A stretch of DNA of 10,414 bases from an uncultured Bryobacteraceae bacterium (GTDB lineage Bacteria; Acidobacteriota; Terriglobia; Bryobacterales; Bryobacteraceae). The position numbers and the translations under genes are program-made. The stretch lies in contig CAKZVG010000461.1 of the NCBI GenBank assembly GCA_937921835.1, positions 1-10,414 on the forward strand, in the 5' to 3' direction. The notes beneath the pieces are model-generated. The model was not told where the DNA came from. It saw only the letters and a list, made by a program, of their open reading frames with translations, and did not search any database. This document shows positions 1,629-7,447 of this stretch, piece after piece. The number at the start of each line of letters is the position of its first letter. The stretch's first letter is position 1.

Positions 1629-2789
1629 TCACCCGGACGCCGGCGGTCCGGTTCGTGGCGGGCGCAGCGCCGCCGGGTTTCCGCGGGGTTCCCGAACAAT
1701 CCTCCCGTCATTCCCAAGCCGCAGCCGCTCCCCGCGCCATTCCACCGCCGTTCCCCCCAGGCCGGCGGCGTAGACGGCGAACGCCCACAGATCCCACAGC
1801 GGGATCAGCGGCGCCGCGGCCAGCGCCAGCCGGCTGCGCACCACTCCCCATCCGCCCACCACCCCCGCCAGAATGCGCAGCGCGGCCAGTCCCGCCGCCG
1901 CCAGCGGCTGGCCCCCCAACAGCGCGGCCAGCGCCCAGAGTCCGGCGTGCGTCACCGGCAGGCCGGCGTAGCCTCCGCCACGCGAGACGCGGATGGTGCG
2001 CGCCCACCGCACCTGGTGCTTCCAGACCCCGCTCCAGGTCGTCTCGCCCAGGAACGTCTCGACCACGGTCTTCGACATCACGGGGCGGCCTCCAAGCGAG
2101 GTGATGCGTTTGGCGAGCTGGTAGTCGTCGGCCAGGTAATCGGCCAGCGCCGCGAAGCCGCCGATGCGGGCGAGGTCCGCGGCGCGGAAGGCCAGCGTCG
2201 ATCCCAGGCCGAATTCGCGCACACCCACCAGCGGGGCCACCAGCACGCTGGGAGCGAAACCGGTTGCGATCCCCAGCGCCTCCCAGCGCCCCGCCCAGGT
2301 GTCCGCCGAAGCCCGGTAGAGGCAGGTGACGATTCCCACGCCAGGCGCCATCAGCGGCCCGGCAACCCGCTGGAGGTAATCCGGCGGAACGAGAATGTCG
2401 CTGTCGTTGACCACCAGCACCGGATGCCGGGCCTCCCCGGCCAGCCGCATCAGAAGACCCACCTTGCCGTTGGCCGCGTCGTGGCCGCCGCGCACCAGGC
2501 GTATGGCGCGCTGCGGGAATTCCGCCGTCAGGCGGCGGATGTCCTCAAGCGCCGGGTCGTCCGCGTCGCGGACACCGAACAGGATCTCGTACTCGGGATA
2601 GTCCAGCAGGGCGTGCGACCGGATGGCTTCGAAGAAGTGGGGATCGCGGCCGCGCACGGGCTTGAGGATCGACACCGGCGGCAGCGGACCGCCCGGCGGC
2701 GGCGGCGAAAGCAGGTGCTTGAGCGAGGCGGCGAGCGAGACCAACTGATACGCGGCGGCGGCGGCGGCGGGGACGAGGATCCAGTTCAC
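1629..2789 (-). CDS. hpnI: HpnI: hopanoid biosynthesis glycosyltransferase (ceramide glucosyltransferase-like, GT21/GT2)
   Basis: A 386-residue membrane glycosyltransferase that, by family knowledge, adds an N-acetylglucosamine unit to bacteriohopanetetrol before formation of aminosugar and cyclitol ether head groups. A hydrophobic N-terminal anchor (about residues 1-22) precedes the GT-A domain. Landmarks are VSILKPVRG (39-47), RDADDP (74-79), NDSDI (128-132, the metal-binding DxD position), DDYQLAKRI (221-229, catalytic Asp region) and QVRWAR (259-264), the Q-x-x-R-W signature of processive/ceramide-type enzymes. Hydrophobic stretches at about 281-313 and 325-345 anchor the C-terminus. It starts with GTG, which overlaps the TGA of the preceding EamA gene by four bases (GTGA) with no obvious Shine-Dalgarno, so coupled translation is likely. 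A run of Ala codons (CGG repeats on the plus strand, about 2752-2771) encodes part of the first helix. Confidence 0.9.
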   Translation of the reverse strand: MNWILVPAAAAAAYQLVSLAASLKHLLSPPPPGGPLPPVSILKPVRGRDPHFFEAIRSHALLDYPEYEILFGVRDADDPALEDIRRLTAEFPQRAIRLVRGGHDAANGKVGLLMRLAGEARHPVLVVNDSDILVPPDYLQRVAGPLMAPGVGIVTCLYRASADTWAGRWEALGIATGFAPSVLVAPLVGVREFGLGSTLAFRAADLARIGGFAALADYLADDYQLAKRITSLGGRPVMSKTVVETFLGETTWSGVWKHQVRWARTIRVSRGGGYAGLPVTHAGLWALAALLGGQPLAAAGLAALRILAGVVGGWGVVRSRLALAAAPLIPLWDLWAFAVYAAGLGGTAVEWRGERLRLGNDGRIVREPRGNPAALRPPRTGPPASG

Positions 2790-3145
2790 AGAGCGAGGAA
2801 GGCCACGCCGCAGGCCACCAGTCCCGCGCCGGCCCAGCGCCTGCCGCTCACCTGCTCCTTCAGCAGCAGGCGGGCAAGCACGGTTTCAAAGACGTAAGTG
2901 GCGGCCGTGGCGGGCACCGCGAAGGTCAGGTCGGCCACCGTCAACAGCTTCATGAAAGCGAAGAAGGAGAGCGCCAGAAATAACACCGCCAGCAGCAGGC
3001 GCCAGCGCAGACACAAACGGCCGAAGACGCGCGGCAACCCGCCGCGGCGGAAGTGGATCTCGCCGTGCCGCTTCATCTCGTAGCTTTGCAGCAGGTCGCT
3101 CACGATGGTCGAGAAGACGATCACGCCCACCAGCGCCCATTTCAT
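2786..3145 (-). CDS. Small EamA/SMR-type four-helix membrane protein (putative hopanoid lipid transporter subunit A)
   Basis: A 119-residue inner-membrane protein with four predicted helices (about 1-19, 49-69, 72-94, 102-119), the size of a half EamA/DMT protein or an SMR subunit. The second half carries the EamA-like pattern ADLTFAVPATAATYV followed by LLKEQV and RRWAGAGL. It aligns without gaps over residues 70-119 with the neighbouring 136-residue protein, so the two are tandem paralogues likely to work as a heterodimer. ArnE/ArnF, the paired small proteins that flip aminoarabinose-lipid, are the closest known analogy; that comparison is inference. The ATG overlaps the preceding TGA (ATGA) and a GGGGGAG ribosome-binding site lies eight bases upstream. 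Its place between hpnJ and hpnI suggests a role in handling glycosylated hopanoids rather than drug efflux. No substrate-specific residue can be named. Confidence 0.82.
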   Translation of the reverse strand: MKWALVGVIVFSTIVSDLLQSYEMKRHGEIHFRRGGLPRVFGRLCLRWRLLLAVLFLALSFFAFMKLLTVADLTFAVPATAATYVFETVLARLLLKEQVSGRRWAGAGLVACGVAFLAL

Positions 3146-3552
3146 CGCGCGGACTCCCCCGCCGCCGGCCGCGCGGCGCGCGTGGTGCGCGGCGGCGTCA
3201 CCGACACCAGCGCCACTCCGGCCACGATCAGCAGCGTTCCGGCCCAGCGCGCGGGCCCGATCTGCTCGGCTAGAAACATTTTGCCCATAAGCGCCGTGAG
3301 CACATAGCCAGCGGCCGTCACCGGCAACACGAAGCTCAGGTCCGCCCAGCTCAGCAGCGCCACGCGGGTGAGCATCCAGAGAATCAGCAGCGCCACGCCC
3401 AGTACCACCCAGGGACTCAGAAAGGCGCTGAGGTAGGACAGCGGCGAAGCGGTCAGCGGCGCGGCCTGCTTCAATCCCAGGCTCAGGCAGAAATTGCCGA
3501 GAACGTTGCTGGCCACCACGGCGGCGGCCGTCAGCGCGGTCTTGGGCCTCAA
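3142..3552 (-). CDS. Small EamA/SMR-type four-helix membrane protein (putative hopanoid lipid transporter subunit B)
   Basis: A 136-residue membrane protein with four predicted helices (about 5-25, 47-68, 72-94, 102-119) and a short, basic C-terminal tail (120-136) that its partner lacks. The pattern ADLSFVLPVTAAGYV, LAEQI, ARWAG repeats the motif of the next gene, which shows a local duplication followed by divergence. The start codon is TTG at 3552-3550, directly after the hpnJ TGA with no bases between; a GAGGG run six bases upstream, inside the last codons of hpnJ, supports this start. The alternative is an internal GTG a few codons later, which would cut the first helix. The protein is likely co-made with HpnJ and may form a heterodimeric lipid transporter with the 119-residue protein; this role is inferred from context only. 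Confidence 0.82.
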   Translation of the reverse strand: MRPKTALTAAAVVASNVLGNFCLSLGLKQAAPLTASPLSYLSAFLSPWVVLGVALLILWMLTRVALLSWADLSFVLPVTAAGYVLTALMGKMFLAEQIGPARWAGTLLIVAGVALVSVTPPRTTRAARPAAGESAR

Positions 3553-5013
3553 TCAGCCCTCGGCGCCCGCGTAGGCGCGGGCCTTGCGCTTCTCTTCCGC
3601 GACGAACTTCTTGCGCTTGGCGCGCAGCGACAGGTACTCGCGGGCTTCCTTGTAAAGCCGCTTGCGCTCGGCCCCATCGAAAATCGCCTTGCGGACCACG
3701 CGCCAGGCGGCCTTGGGGCGGAAATAATACTCGCCATAGAAGCGTTCCACCCAGTCGACCAGCTCGGCGCGGTCCAGCCCCGGGTAAGTGATGTTGGGGA
3801 GCTGGTGGCCCAGCTCGTCGGTCATCGAGTCCAGCGTGATCAGGCCGTTGCGCTGGACGTAGTCGAAGAACTCGGTGCCCGGGTACGGGTGGGCGATCGA
3901 AACCTGAATGGTGTCGGTATCGAGCCGCTTGGCGAACTCGATGGTGCGCCGCAGGGAATCGCGCGACTCGCCCGGCAGGCCGACGATGAAGTCGGCGTGA
4001 ATCAGCAGTCCGAGCTTCTTGGCGTTGGCCGTGAAGCGCTCAGCCATCTCGATGGTGGCGCCCTTTTTGATGTTCTTGAGGATCTGCGGGTCGCCCGATT
4101 CGTAGCCCACGATCATGAGCCGGCAGCCGGACTCCTTCATCGCCTTGAGGGTTTCGTAGTCCGTGGTGACGCGCGAGGTGCAGGACCAGGTAAGCTTCAG
4201 CGGCTTGAGATGGCGGCACACTTCGAGGGTGCGCGCCTTCTGGTAGTTGAAGGTGTCGTCGTCGAAGAAGATCTCCTTGAGGCCGGGGAAGTTCTCCGCC
4301 GCCCAGCGGCATTCGTTGGCGACGTCGGCGGCCGAGCGCAGCCGCCAGCGGTGGCCGGAATGCGTCTGCGGCCACAGGCAGAAGGTGCACAGCGCCGGAC
4401 AGCCGCGCGAAGTGTAGAGCGACACGAACGGGTTCAGCAGGAAAGGGACGTTGTAGCGGCGGAAATCGAGGTCGCGCTGGTAGACCTTGGTGACCCAGGG
4501 CAGCGCGTCCAGGTCTTCGACGTAGCCGCCGTCGGGATTGTGCCCGATCGCGCCGTTCTTACGGAAGCTGACGTTGGGCAGTTCCTCGACCGGCTTGCCG
4601 TTGGCGAAATCGACGATCTGGTGATCGAACTCGCGCCGCACCACGAAATCGATGGCCGGCGACGCGCGCAGGCATTTCTCCGGCTCCACCGTCACCGGCG
4701 GCCCCACGAAGGCCACCTTGAGGCGCGGGTTGTTGTCTTTCATCATCTCGGCGATCTTGACGTCCACGTGGAAGCCGGGCGTGGAGGTGAACAGGACCAG
4801 CAGTTCGAAGTCCTTCGCCATGGCGGCGGTCTGCTCGATGGAGACCTTGTGCGGCGGGGCGTCCACCACTTTGCTGTCCGGCAGCATGCCCGCCGGATAG
4901 CACAGCCAGACCGGATACCAGTAGGATTCGATCTCCCGCGAAGCCGGCCAGCGGGAACTGGCGCCGCCATCGAAGCCCTCGAACGAGGGTGGGTTCAGGA
5001 GCAAAGTCCGCAT
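3553..5013 (-). CDS. hpnJ: HpnJ: radical SAM enzyme of hopanoid cyclitol ether formation
   Basis: A 486-residue B12-binding-like plus radical SAM protein that matches HpnJ closely in length and character. HpnJ-type enzymes are linked genetically to bacteriohopanetetrol cyclitol ether, where the glucosamine ring attached by HpnI and deacetylated by HpnK is contracted to a five-membered cyclitol. Residues 1-140 form the cobalamin-binding-like Rossmann region, opening with MRTLLLNPPSFEGFDGG. The radical SAM core begins with YTSRGCPALCTFC, where C205, C209 and C212 are the [4Fe-4S] ligands (CxxxCxxC). Other marks are FFDDDTF (249-255), VGYESGD (302-308) and DFIVGLPGES (341-350). The C-terminus (about 430-486) is rich in Lys and Arg. 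It is the first gene of the hpnJ-EamA-EamA-hpnI unit. No clear ribosome-binding site precedes the ATG, and a weak promoter-like pair lies just upstream. hpnK is not in the window. Confidence 0.93.
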   Translation of the reverse strand: MRTLLLNPPSFEGFDGGASSRWPASREIESYWYPVWLCYPAGMLPDSKVVDAPPHKVSIEQTAAMAKDFELLVLFTSTPGFHVDVKIAEMMKDNNPRLKVAFVGPPVTVEPEKCLRASPAIDFVVRREFDHQIVDFANGKPVEELPNVSFRKNGAIGHNPDGGYVEDLDALPWVTKVYQRDLDFRRYNVPFLLNPFVSLYTSRGCPALCTFCLWPQTHSGHRWRLRSAADVANECRWAAENFPGLKEIFFDDDTFNYQKARTLEVCRHLKPLKLTWSCTSRVTTDYETLKAMKESGCRLMIVGYESGDPQILKNIKKGATIEMAERFTANAKKLGLLIHADFIVGLPGESRDSLRRTIEFAKRLDTDTIQVSIAHPYPGTEFFDYVQRNGLITLDSMTDELGHQLPNITYPGLDRAELVDWVERFYGEYYFRPKAAWRVVRKAIFDGAERKRLYKEAREYLSLRAKRKKFVAEEKRKARAYAGAEG

Positions 5014-5139: not shown

Positions 5140-5216
5140 TGGTGGGCGGTCGCAGGCTCGAACTGCGGACCTCCTGCTTGTAAGGCAGGCGCTCTGACCG
5201 GCTGAGCTAACCGCCC
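5140..5216 (-). tRNA. tRNA-Val (anticodon TAC)
   Basis: The minus strand folds as a complete cloverleaf. The acceptor stem GGGCGGT pairs with ACCGCCC, the D arm starts TAGCTCAG, the anticodon stem CCTGC/GCAGG holds the loop CTTACAA with anticodon TAC (reads GTA, Val), and the T arm is CGCAG-TTCGAGC-CTGCG. The discriminator is A, and the CCA end is encoded in the gene (5142-5140). It lies about 127 bases upstream of hpnJ in the same direction, with no clear terminator between them. Confidence 0.97.
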
Positions 5217-5339
5217 GGGCTGACTCCTCAAGTTTACTACGCCCGCTCTTGCGGCCCACGCCCCCGCCCGCGGTCCGCGCCGGGGATTGCCGGGCAAAGG
5301 GGGTGGCCGGCGCCCCGCGTGCGGCCTCCCCGCTTCGGG

Positions 5340-5345
5340 CATAAT
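5340..5345 (+). promoter_or_regulatory. -10-like box immediately upstream of ackA
   Basis: CATAAT ends seven bases before the GTG start of ackA. A transcript begun at the usual distance would start at or next to the start codon, giving a leaderless mRNA. No Shine-Dalgarno is seen at a working distance (the GGA before GTG is too close), which fits. No good -35 box was found. Confidence 0.35.
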
Positions 5346-5352
5346 CGTCGGA

Positions 5353-6477
5353 GTGAAGATTCTCGTCCTCAATTGCGGCAGCGCGTCGGTGAAGTACAAG
5401 CTCTTCGAGGACGGCCACGCGCTCCGTGGCGGCCTCATCGAGGACACCGCCGGCTATGAACGGGCCGTGCGCCGCGCCATCGCCGCCGCCGCGCCCGATC
5501 CCGCCGGAGTCGCCGCCGTGGGCCATCGCTTTGTTCACGGCGGCAGCCGCTTCCAGGGCGCGGTGCTGCTGTCGGAGGAAATCGCCCGCGAGATCGAAAG
5601 CTTCAATCACCTCGCCCCGCTGCACAATCCCCCGAATCTTTCCGGCTACCGTGCCGCGCGCGCCGCCCTCCCGGGCTGCCCGCAGGTGGCCGTCTTCGAC
5701 ACCGCCTTCCACCAGACCATCCCGCCGCGGGCCCACCTGTACGCGATCCCCTACGAGTACTCCCTGCGCCACGGCATCCGCCGGTACGGTTTCCACGGTT
5801 CCTCGCACCGCTACCTCACGCTGCGCTACGCCGAACTCCACGGCGGGGACCCGCGCGCCTACAAGCTGATCACCTGCCACTTGGGCAACGGCTGCTCGAT
5901 CACCGCCGTGGACGGCGGCCTTGCCGTCGATACCTCGATGGGTTTCACCCCGCTTGAAGGCCTGGTCATGGGGACCCGCGGCGGCGACCTCGACGCCGGC
6001 GCGCTGCTCCACCTGATGGAGTGCGAAGGCCTGGACACCAGGCAAGCCGCCGGGATGCTGAATCGCGCCAGCGGCCTGCGCGGCCTCTCGGGTCTCAGCC
6101 ACGACATGCGCGAGTTGCTGGCCGCCGAAGCCGCGGGCGACGAACGCGCTCGTCTGGCCCTCGAGGTCTTCTGCTACCGCGTCACCAAGTACATCGGAGC
6201 CTACTACGCCGTGCTGGGCGGCGCCGCCGCGCTCATCTTCACCGCCGGCATCGGCGAAAACGCCCCCGAGATCCGCGCCCGCATCTGCCGGCCGCTGGGC
6301 GCGCTCGGAATCCGGATCGACGAAGAGAAGAACCGCTCCACCTCGGGCCGCGAAGCGGAAATCTCGCCCCCGGGCTCGGCCACCCGCGTGTGGGTGATCC
6401 CGACGGACGAAGAACTGCTGATTGCCCGTGAAACGCGCGCCGCCGTGCTTAGCGCATCGCCGCCTGAAGCGCGGTGA
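5353..6477 (+). CDS. ackA: Acetate kinase
   Basis: Acetate kinase interconverts acetyl phosphate + ADP and acetate + ATP, the energy-yielding step of overflow acetate formation, or activates acetate in reverse. The GTG start at 5353 gives the standard opening [18 protein letters not shown], with N7; an upstream in-frame TTG at 5287 would only add 22 low-complexity residues and is rejected. The 374-residue protein shows VGHRFVHGG (56-64), [12 protein letters not shown] (114-125) with catalytic D116, [10 protein letters not shown] (143-152) with H148, HLGNGCSI (176-183), [18 protein letters not shown] (197-214) with R209, [13 protein letters not shown] (296-308) and PTDEEL (350-355) with E353. 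It is a little shorter than the usual 390-400 residues, the loss being in the region just after the first strands. The gene faces pta, and their 3' ends overlap by 29 bases. This is a cytoplasmic enzyme expected to pair with Pta. Confidence 0.97.
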
Positions 6478-7447
6478 TCACCGCCACGTTGTAGATGTCC
6501 TCGGCCGAGCAGCCCCGCGAGAGATCGTTGCCCGCCCTGGCGAGCCCTTGCAGGAACGGCCCGATCGCCGCCGCCCCGCCCAGCCGCTCCACCATCTTAT
6601 AGGCGATGTTGGCCGAAGCCAGATCGGGGAAGATGAGGGTGTTCGCGCGTCCGGCCACCCTGGATCCCGGCGCTTTCGATTGCCCCACCGCCGGCACCAG
6701 CGCGGCGTCGGCCTGCAACTCGCCGTCGATTTCGAGTTCCGGCGCCCGCGCCCGCACCACCCGCAGCGCTTCCACCACCTTGTCGGCGGCCTTGTGGCGC
6801 GTGCTGCCTTTGGTCGAAAACGACAGCAGCGCCACCACCGGCTCGACGCCCAGCAACACGCGCGTGCTTTGGGCGGTGGCGATCGCGATCTCGGCGAGCT
6901 GCACCGCGGTCGGATCGATGACGATTGCGCAGTCGGCCAGCGCCAGCAGCCCGTTGTGCCCGAAGGCGCGGTCGCGCGCGGCCAGGATGAAGACGCTCGA
7001 CACCGTGCGCACGCCCGGTTCGGTCCCGATGCAATGCAACGCCGCCCGCACCGCCTCGGCGGTTGAGGTCGAGGCGCCTCCCACGCTTCCGTCGGCGTCG
7101 CCCGCCGCGACCATCAACTTGGCGAAATACAGCGGATTGCGCGCCACGCGCGCGGCCTCCATCGCCGTCACGCCCCGCGCCCGCCGCCGCTCGTGATAGA
7201 GCGCCGCGTAAGCCGGCAGCCGCGGCGACGTCTCCGGATCGGCGAAGTTCACTCCCGCCGGGGCGCCCGCCGGCGGGCGGCCTACCAGAACCGGATCGAG
7301 GAGTCCGTCCGCCTGGAGGCGCTCCGCCGCCGCCAGCACGCGCGCATCCTGGCCTTCCGGAAACACAATCCGCATGCGCTTGTTGAGCGTGCGGAGGCGG
7401 GTGGTCTGCGCCGCCATGAACTCGGCGGCGGCTGGCGGAATGGGCAT
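6449..7447 (-). CDS. pta: Phosphate acetyltransferase
   Basis: Phosphate acetyltransferase converts acetyl-CoA + phosphate to acetyl phosphate + CoA, the partner step to AckA. The 332-residue protein is the short form, made of the PTA/PTB catalytic domain only. Motifs are [14 protein letters not shown] (25-38), [13 protein letters not shown] (117-129), LLSFSTKGS (207-215), [17 protein letters not shown] (236-252), [19 protein letters not shown] (273-291) and [12 protein letters not shown] (307-318), where S310, R311 and D317 correspond to catalytic residues known from the Methanosarcina enzyme. The start is ATG at 7447, but M11 would also give a normal N-terminus; no ribosome-binding site is seen for either. 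A TACAAT box nine bases upstream suggests a very short leader. It is encoded opposite ackA with overlapping 3' ends, not in the usual pta-ackA operon order, and its upstream region is built from the end of a broken toxin gene. Confidence 0.96.

Follow-up and report, generated by a model that had tools for sequence, protein, structure and literature searches.

A conserved pair of small EamA proteins between hpnJ and hpnI: a candidate flippase for decorated hopanoids

Results

The EamA pair and its locus

A 10,414-nucleotide stretch of DNA from an uncultured Bryobacteraceae bacterium (contig CAKZVG010000461.1; here called the window) carries two small genes for EamA-type membrane proteins between the hopanoid genes hpnJ and hpnI. 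This pair is real, conserved and linked to hopanoid genes; its place in the operon, its co-occurrence with HpnJ across Acidobacteriota and the common ancestry of its two subunits were all observed. The function preferred here is that of a flippase for the products of HpnI, HpnK and HpnJ, working like ArnE/ArnF, to which a probability of roughly 0.6 is given. An earlier note on this DNA had raised the same idea of a transporter for modified hopanoids.

The upstream EamA gene is called the first subunit and the downstream gene the second (Table 1). The first EamA gene begins directly after the TGA stop of hpnJ, with a putative TTG start codon that was called mechanically from the open reading frame (ORF), while the junctions between the two EamA genes and between the second EamA gene and hpnI are 4-bp overlaps. 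Coordinates therefore confirmed the earlier description of a pair lying between hpnJ and hpnI, with all four genes abutting or overlapping. Only the second subunit passed the Pfam EamA model (PF00892, cut-off 28.2 bits); the first failed on its own, yet is homologous to the second. HpnJ of the window has B12-binding and radical SAM domains only, according to Pfam, and a squalene-hopene cyclase is present elsewhere in the genome, which is 62% complete. Gene calls came throughout from a basic ORF-picking script and include several spurious frames in the loci that were read; where a neighbour matched no profile (ArnC-like, ArnT-like, HpnA, HpnG, HpnM, HpnN and HpnE), it was named by reading its sequence.

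Table 1. Features of the hopanoid locus in the window, and pair sites in two genomes without a match to HpnJ, HpnI or the cyclase at the thresholds used
Feature	Position	Strand	Evidence
hpnJ, radical SAM/B12 enzyme of the bacteriohopanetetrol cyclitol ether step	3553..5013	-	TIGR03471, 755.8 bits (cut-off 577.6)
First EamA subunit, 136 aa, N- and C-terminus predicted inside	3142..3552	-	ORF with TTG start; EamA 23.2 bits (below cut-off); charge bias
Second EamA subunit, 119 aa, N- and C-terminus predicted outside	2786..3145	-	EamA 33.9 bits (above cut-off); charge bias; modelled SMR fold
hpnI, glycosyltransferase putting N-acetylglucosamine on bacteriohopanetetrol	1629..2789	-	TIGR03472, 319.7 bits (cut-off 310)
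Pair, locus L100	435-1252		
Pair, locus L101	about 5173-5936		

Occurrence with hpnJ

The earlier note had proposed counting the pair in hpnI and hpnJ neighbourhoods. At least 589 HpnJ loci were confirmed. Of the 80 closest, which were used here, 74 extended 1 kb or more beyond the hpnJ stop codon; the pair lay downstream of hpnJ on the same strand in 68 of these 74. Among the 68, the first EamA domain began within 300 bp of the hpnJ stop in 64, the EamA genes overlapped by 4 bp in 58, and hpnI came next in 45. Six loci had no pair (L027, L056, L073, L075, L083 and L085), and all of their genomes except that of L075 carry the pair elsewhere.

HpnJ, HpnI, squalene-hopene cyclase and the pair were then looked for in 199 evenly sampled genomes of Acidobacteriota. 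HpnJ was counted above 400 bits, which retained 29 of 30 matches and left out G030 (346.9 bits). A strong pair was defined as two halves of at least 90 bits, less than 400 bp apart; 68 of 88 EamA rows entered this count, the other 20 being single matches of 73.9 bits or less. HpnJ was found in 29 genomes, a strong pair in 29 and both in 27 (Fisher's test without correction for kinship, p = 9e-29). Where the pair shared a contig with hpnJ it was always downstream and on the same strand (26/26), and in 25 cases it was within 1.6 kb. Genomes having both HpnJ and the cyclase accounted for 27 of the 29 strong pairs, and so the pair did not lie mostly away from hopanoid genes in Acidobacteriota, the outcome that the earlier note had named as contradicting its proposal. 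No strong pair occurred in the 22 genomes with a cyclase and no HpnJ; the pair therefore goes with the branch that decorates hopanoids and not with hopanoids as such. Three of the cyclase genomes without HpnJ (G037, G066 and G196) had a single EamA relative of 88–97 bits near HpnI. In G130 the pair was about 8 kb from hpnJ, adjoining two squalene/phytoene synthase genes and an amine oxidase; in G195 it was on another contig, adjoined by genes similar in sequence to the neighbours of the G130 pair.

Gene order varied among phyla. One acidobacterial genome (G096) has hpnJ-hpnK-EamA-EamA-hpnI in a single run, as do loci L238 and L240, and a metagenome-assembled genome (MAG) of Blastocatellia has hpnK-EamA-EamA-hpnI. 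A third phylum, that of a 'Deltaproteobacteria' MAG, had HpnJ above the cut-off in 30 of 297 genomes. The stretches read showed hpnJ-hpnK-EamA-EamA-hpnI in 2 of the 30, hpnJ-hpnK with a single EamA gene in 7, and hpnJ-radical SAM-hpnK-single EamA in 3 (the radical SAM gene was checked in one); in the remaining 18 no EamA was found by profile in the hpnJ stretch, apart from one 25-bit match. The links of the pair, or of its fused form, that are visible in cyanobacteria are to HpnI: two genomes have HpnI-EamA-EamA. The fused form joins both subunits in one chain of about 273–309 residues with a hydrophobic linker (L181, 5964-6860; also L182 to L185). Four other cyanobacteria have single EamA matches of about 60–70 bits adjoining sugar transferases read as ArnC- or ArnT-like.

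Ancestry of the two subunits

The subunits of the window align without a gap over 70 residues (50–119 against 49–118) with 39% identity (E = 1e-13), slightly further than the earlier note had claimed (70–119). Two trees were built from 93 and 100 EamA halves over 124 columns, in which many forks were unresolved; the second omitted sequences flagged for long branches in the first (ArnF, EmrE, both halves of L108 and L180, and L191). All second subunits fell on one side of one branch in both trees (34 and 36 rows, SH-aLRT 99 and 97), forming one group drawn from three phyla. The first subunits adjoined this group, and the halves of the cyanobacterial fusions kept the same order. Just outside the pair clade, the single EamA genes of hpnJ-hpnK loci and those of HpnI-linked loci formed groups of their own, with EamA sequences from other contexts branching further out in both trees; two of the transferase-linked cyanobacterial genes were placed, and both lay outside the clade. 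ArnE and ArnF were also outside it in the first tree, but on long branches. The earlier note was right to see a tandem duplication, but this was not a local event: judging from the trees, it is old and common to several phyla. A tblastn search of plasmid records with the second subunit gave no match, and a sequence search of the PDB gave nothing beyond a weak match to NIPA2.

Topology, fold and key residues

The subunits had been described as four-helix proteins. Simple hydropathy found four helices in the first subunit and only two in the second, for which the predicted structure has four long helices and one short. The N/C-side balance of Lys and Arg was positive in 21 and negative in one of 29 first subunits, and negative in all 29 second subunits, which predicts that the two are oppositely oriented in the membrane; such opposite charge bias is the pattern given for antiparallel pairs in a review of the small multidrug resistance (SMR) family (PMC9574504). 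ArnE and ArnF lean in the same two directions, while the ten single EamA genes of hpnJ-hpnK loci were intermediate (-4 to +1). The modelled second subunit matched the structures of EmrE and Gdx-Clo over most of its chain, and so passed a test for the SMR fold. A Foldseek search by itself found nothing at E = 0.001 with a model of the fused cyanobacterial protein, and PF00893 had no match among the window proteins up to E = 0.1.

At the position of E14, which was assigned by reading the alignment, none of 34 acidobacterial subunits had an acid, and 9 of 17 first subunits had Asn. Substitution of the E14-type glutamate by Asn is often seen in lipid-type SMR members and in ArnE/ArnF (PMC9574504). 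An acid (D or E) was present in helix 1 of all 17 second subunits. A ten-helix drug/metabolite transporter (DMT) of about 300 residues in one chain was considered and excluded by the lengths of the subunits (119 and 136 residues) and their four long helices.

Comparison with known systems

ArnE/ArnF of the E. coli arn operon resembles the pair in consisting of two small overlapping genes for proteins with four helices each and opposite charge bias, and the arn operon, like the hpn locus, places a glycosyltransferase and a deacylating enzyme (a deformylase) beside the flippase genes. The pair differs in its linkage to hopanoid enzymes, in forming its own clade, and in its predicted lipid, a hopanoid rather than a polyprenyl phosphate. 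With EmrE and Gdx-Clo the pair shares the predicted fold of each subunit and the principle of an antiparallel dimer; unlike these, the acidobacterial pair has no E14-type acid, no PF00893 match (in the window) and a lipid-pathway context. HpnN, an RND transporter, also belongs to hopanoid trafficking, but to another family and a later step, the transfer of hopanoids to the outer membrane (PMC12583986).

HpnL (TIGR03476, LPG_synthase_TM) is of an unrelated family and has about 320–355 residues; like the pair, it is found alongside hpnI, hpnJ and hpnK, both in Burkholderiales and in G029, which lacks the pair. According to the 2025 paper cited above, its function is not established (PMC12583986). 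Two plasmid stretches of Burkholderiales have hpnI, hpnJ and hpnK together with a membrane protein of lysylphosphatidylglycerol-synthase type that matches HpnL, and no EamA protein is annotated in them. Among the 29 Acidobacteriota HpnJ genomes, HpnL matches of at least 60 bits occurred in both genomes without the pair and in none of the 27 with it (p = 0.0025, for a small sample uncorrected for kinship). The match in G029 (112 bits) belongs to a run of hpnI-hpnJ-hpnK-hpnL, and that in G192 (72 bits) is clipped by the end of the contig and lies near the cyclase; both are below the cut-off of 195.65 and owe their name to context. Two pair-bearing genomes outside the sample (G210, 113 bits; G207, 97 bits) had HpnL matches outside a hopanoid context. 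The window genome had no match to TIGR03476 at E = 1e-5.

Within the third phylum, HpnL matches of at least 114 bits occurred in all 18 HpnJ genomes without an adjacent EamA gene, versus matches of at least 100 bits in 3 of the 12 with one (p = 1.5e-5). Though larger in number than the acidobacterial contrast, this split makes a weaker case and was not relied upon. All but two of the 30 genomes were below the HpnL cut-off; the presence of EamA was judged beside hpnJ, the genome-wide search covering G201 only; and 20 stretches around HpnL matches, from 17 genomes, held no other hopanoid gene detectable by the seeds within about 7 kb. HpnL was near hopanoid or hpnJ genes only in G506, G582 and G201, the last of which lacks the pair and has its match (114 bits) beside genes read as HpnM and HpnN.

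Neighbouring genes

Other genes were observed around these loci. In the window, hpnI is followed by a divergent transaldolase-like gene (527-1561; 103.9 bits to its best NCBIfam model, cut-off 367), for which the 80 related hpnJ loci gave no match, and the acetate kinase and phosphotransacetylase genes at 5287-7447 are on opposite strands with overlapping 3' ends. Upstream of hpnJ, TolC-type (19/80) and HlyD (16/80) matches and TPR genes were found, for example in L143 (278-3885) and similarly in L052 to L084; these are possibly the next leg of export. A cyanobacterial family of about 285–290 residues lies beside hpnK in L135 (5287-6162) and beside the fused EamA gene and HpnI in L181 (5097-5951); its L135 member had no Pfam or NCBIfam match, and the family is possibly an unrecognised hopanoid gene. 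ABC exporters adjoin HpnI in two cyanobacteria (L170, 2568-4232, TIGR01194, 486 bits; L135, 14601-16220), and were dropped as a third transport solution since there were two cases only.

Loci L089 to L095 contain HpnI and no HpnJ; several have HpnK and a DegT-type aminotransferase (Pfam was checked in L090), some have a single EamA gene, and they perhaps make another head group. One run in L124 (1312-5580) combines an HpnI-like protein (228.6 bits, below the cut-off), a polysaccharide deacetylase, a 307-residue NIPA/EamA-like protein and a B12-type radical SAM protein, which is a similar logic in other protein families. In L244 the gene that follows hpnI (282 residues) was rejected as a DMT protein, having no Pfam family, and the 290-residue protein of L245 matched EamA weakly (20.3 bits, cut-off 28.2).

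Discussion

HpnI transfers N-acetylglucosamine to bacteriohopanetetrol, HpnK deacetylates the product and HpnJ makes the cyclitol ether (PMC12583986). This chemistry presumably takes place on the cytoplasmic side, and the two EamA proteins may serve the branch as an antiparallel heterodimer of SMR fold. Such a dimer would give the bulky polar head group a way through the inner membrane into the periplasmic leaflet, perhaps following the gradient of the lipid, and from there the decorated hopanoid could go on to the outer membrane. In HpnJ genomes that lack the pair, the unrelated HpnL may take over this task. ArnE/ArnF offers the analogy, as it flips an amino-sugar lipid once this has been made by ArnC, a glycosyltransferase, and ArnD, a deformylase; because the arn operon has the same logic of transferase, deformylase and flippase, the pair is proposed to move the decorated hopanoid across. 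The flippase claim of the earlier note accordingly agrees with the predicted topology and SMR fold, the missing drug-pump glutamate and the arn-like gene logic, while transport by the pair, its direction and its substrate are what we infer from these.

Several observations weigh against this flippase. The likeness to ArnE/ArnF that was claimed earlier extends to gene logic and to two subunits of opposite topology, as predicted from charge bias, but not to family membership by score (about 25 against 92 bits): the second and first subunits of the window scored 25.4 and 15.7 bits to ArnE, and no ArnF match (cut-off 99) was among the matches listed for them (NCBIfam models NF011625 and NF002816). 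A pair from G096 (L114) also fell below both cut-offs, at 28.9 bits to ArnE and 25.0 to ArnF. The 27 genomes with both HpnJ and the pair span four families, 19 of them in one, and are not independent, and two genomes (G074 and G169) have the pair and no match to HpnJ (at E = 1e-100), HpnI (1e-40) or the cyclase (1e-50). The HpnK-like deacetylase of the window genome, encoded away from this locus, scores 187.3 bits, under the cut-off of 232.6, which leaves the cyclitol ether a possible rather than a certain product. Acidobacteriota of subdivisions 1 and 3 have hpnI and hpnJ without hpnK; the full set is present in Chloracidobacterium thermophilum, a producer of the ether (PMC5462960). The link to HpnJ, strong in Acidobacteriota, is weak in cyanobacteria: of 117 genomes, 12 had HpnJ above the cut-off, and only 3 of these 12 had a strong pair or a fusion. 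Another four cyanobacteria carry the fusion but no HpnJ. Among six fused genes, just one, in G226, was seen to adjoin HpnI, the reading around that of G305 covering no more than 3.4 kb. Three genomes of the third phylum have EamA beside hpnK together with an HpnL match of 139–152 bits. Where cyanobacteria have HpnJ but not the pair, no HpnL was found, and so a third solution must exist there if the flippase idea is right. Finally, Asp occupies the E14 position in 77 of 78 fused cyanobacterial second halves, where proton coupling is possible. Confidence in the flippase, and in its wider form discussed below, was slightly lowered by these last two points.

The same evidence bears on other explanations. 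The tight coupling to hpnJ, and the confinement of HpnJ to its B12-binding and radical SAM domains, would also suit a pair that transports nothing and instead serves HpnJ or HpnI as a platform in the membrane or as an indispensable partner, anchoring the enzyme or presenting its substrate. This is unlikely, given that the fold and the opposite charge bias are of transporter type and that HpnL, whose relatives are named flippase-like, occurs where the pair is missing. It is improbable, too, that the pair moves a different lipid of the branch, such as the product of HpnI or HpnK alone; the cyanobacterial HpnI-EamA-EamA loci, the HpnI-HpnK-single EamA arrangement without HpnJ in L090, and the single EamA gene near HpnI in L089 and L091 speak for it, and the strict link to HpnJ in Acidobacteriota speaks against.

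Among named NCBIfam models, the second subunit came closest to ArnE, and several more distant single EamA genes adjoin ArnC- or ArnT-like transferases, as might be expected if the pair were an ArnE/ArnF-type flippase of undecaprenyl-phosphate-sugar for lipid A or glycan work that lies in the operon by chance. The transferase-linked relatives lie outside the pair clade, however, no such transferase was beside the pair in the acidobacterial hpnJ loci read, and the pair co-occurs with HpnJ, all of which make this explanation poor. Least credible is a small SMR drug or cation exporter; its size and fold would fit, but the membrane-embedded glutamate of the Qac type is absent from 34 of 34 acidobacterial subunits and the context is that of hopanoids.

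A wider form of the flippase proposal is tentative and rather doubtful as a whole. It would unite a clade of SMR-fold flippases dedicated to hopanoids in which three evolutionary stages survive: the lone gene of hpnJ-hpnK-EamA loci, whose charge is nearly balanced; the antiparallel pair of the window; and the cyanobacterial fusion, where a further hydrophobic linker joins both halves into a single inverted-repeat chain. The helix-1 acid of second subunits would hold the head group, whether glucosamine or cyclitol, by its amine. The pair would be exchangeable with HpnL, which would thereby gain a function.

Composite hopanoids are both membrane lipids and biomarkers in rocks. The available text of the 2025 paper names no inner-membrane flippase for them (PMC12583986), the words 'EamA' and 'transporter' do not occur in the main text of a study of acidobacterial hopanoids (PMC5462960), and among the titles listed in a literature search none names a hopanoid flippase; a hopanoid-type cluster of Leptospirillum includes an EamA-like transporter domain, listed without a function (PMC12654047). 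The SMR review of 2022 reports that no simple inverted-repeat SMR protein had been detected (PMC9574504), and the fused cyanobacterial form is a candidate for such a protein, provided that fold is accepted as the criterion of SMR membership; in it, a four-helix SMR-type pair would have been joined naturally as an inverted repeat. The EamA pair is a candidate for the missing inner-membrane transporter of composite hopanoids, and gives reason to consider HpnL for the same role.

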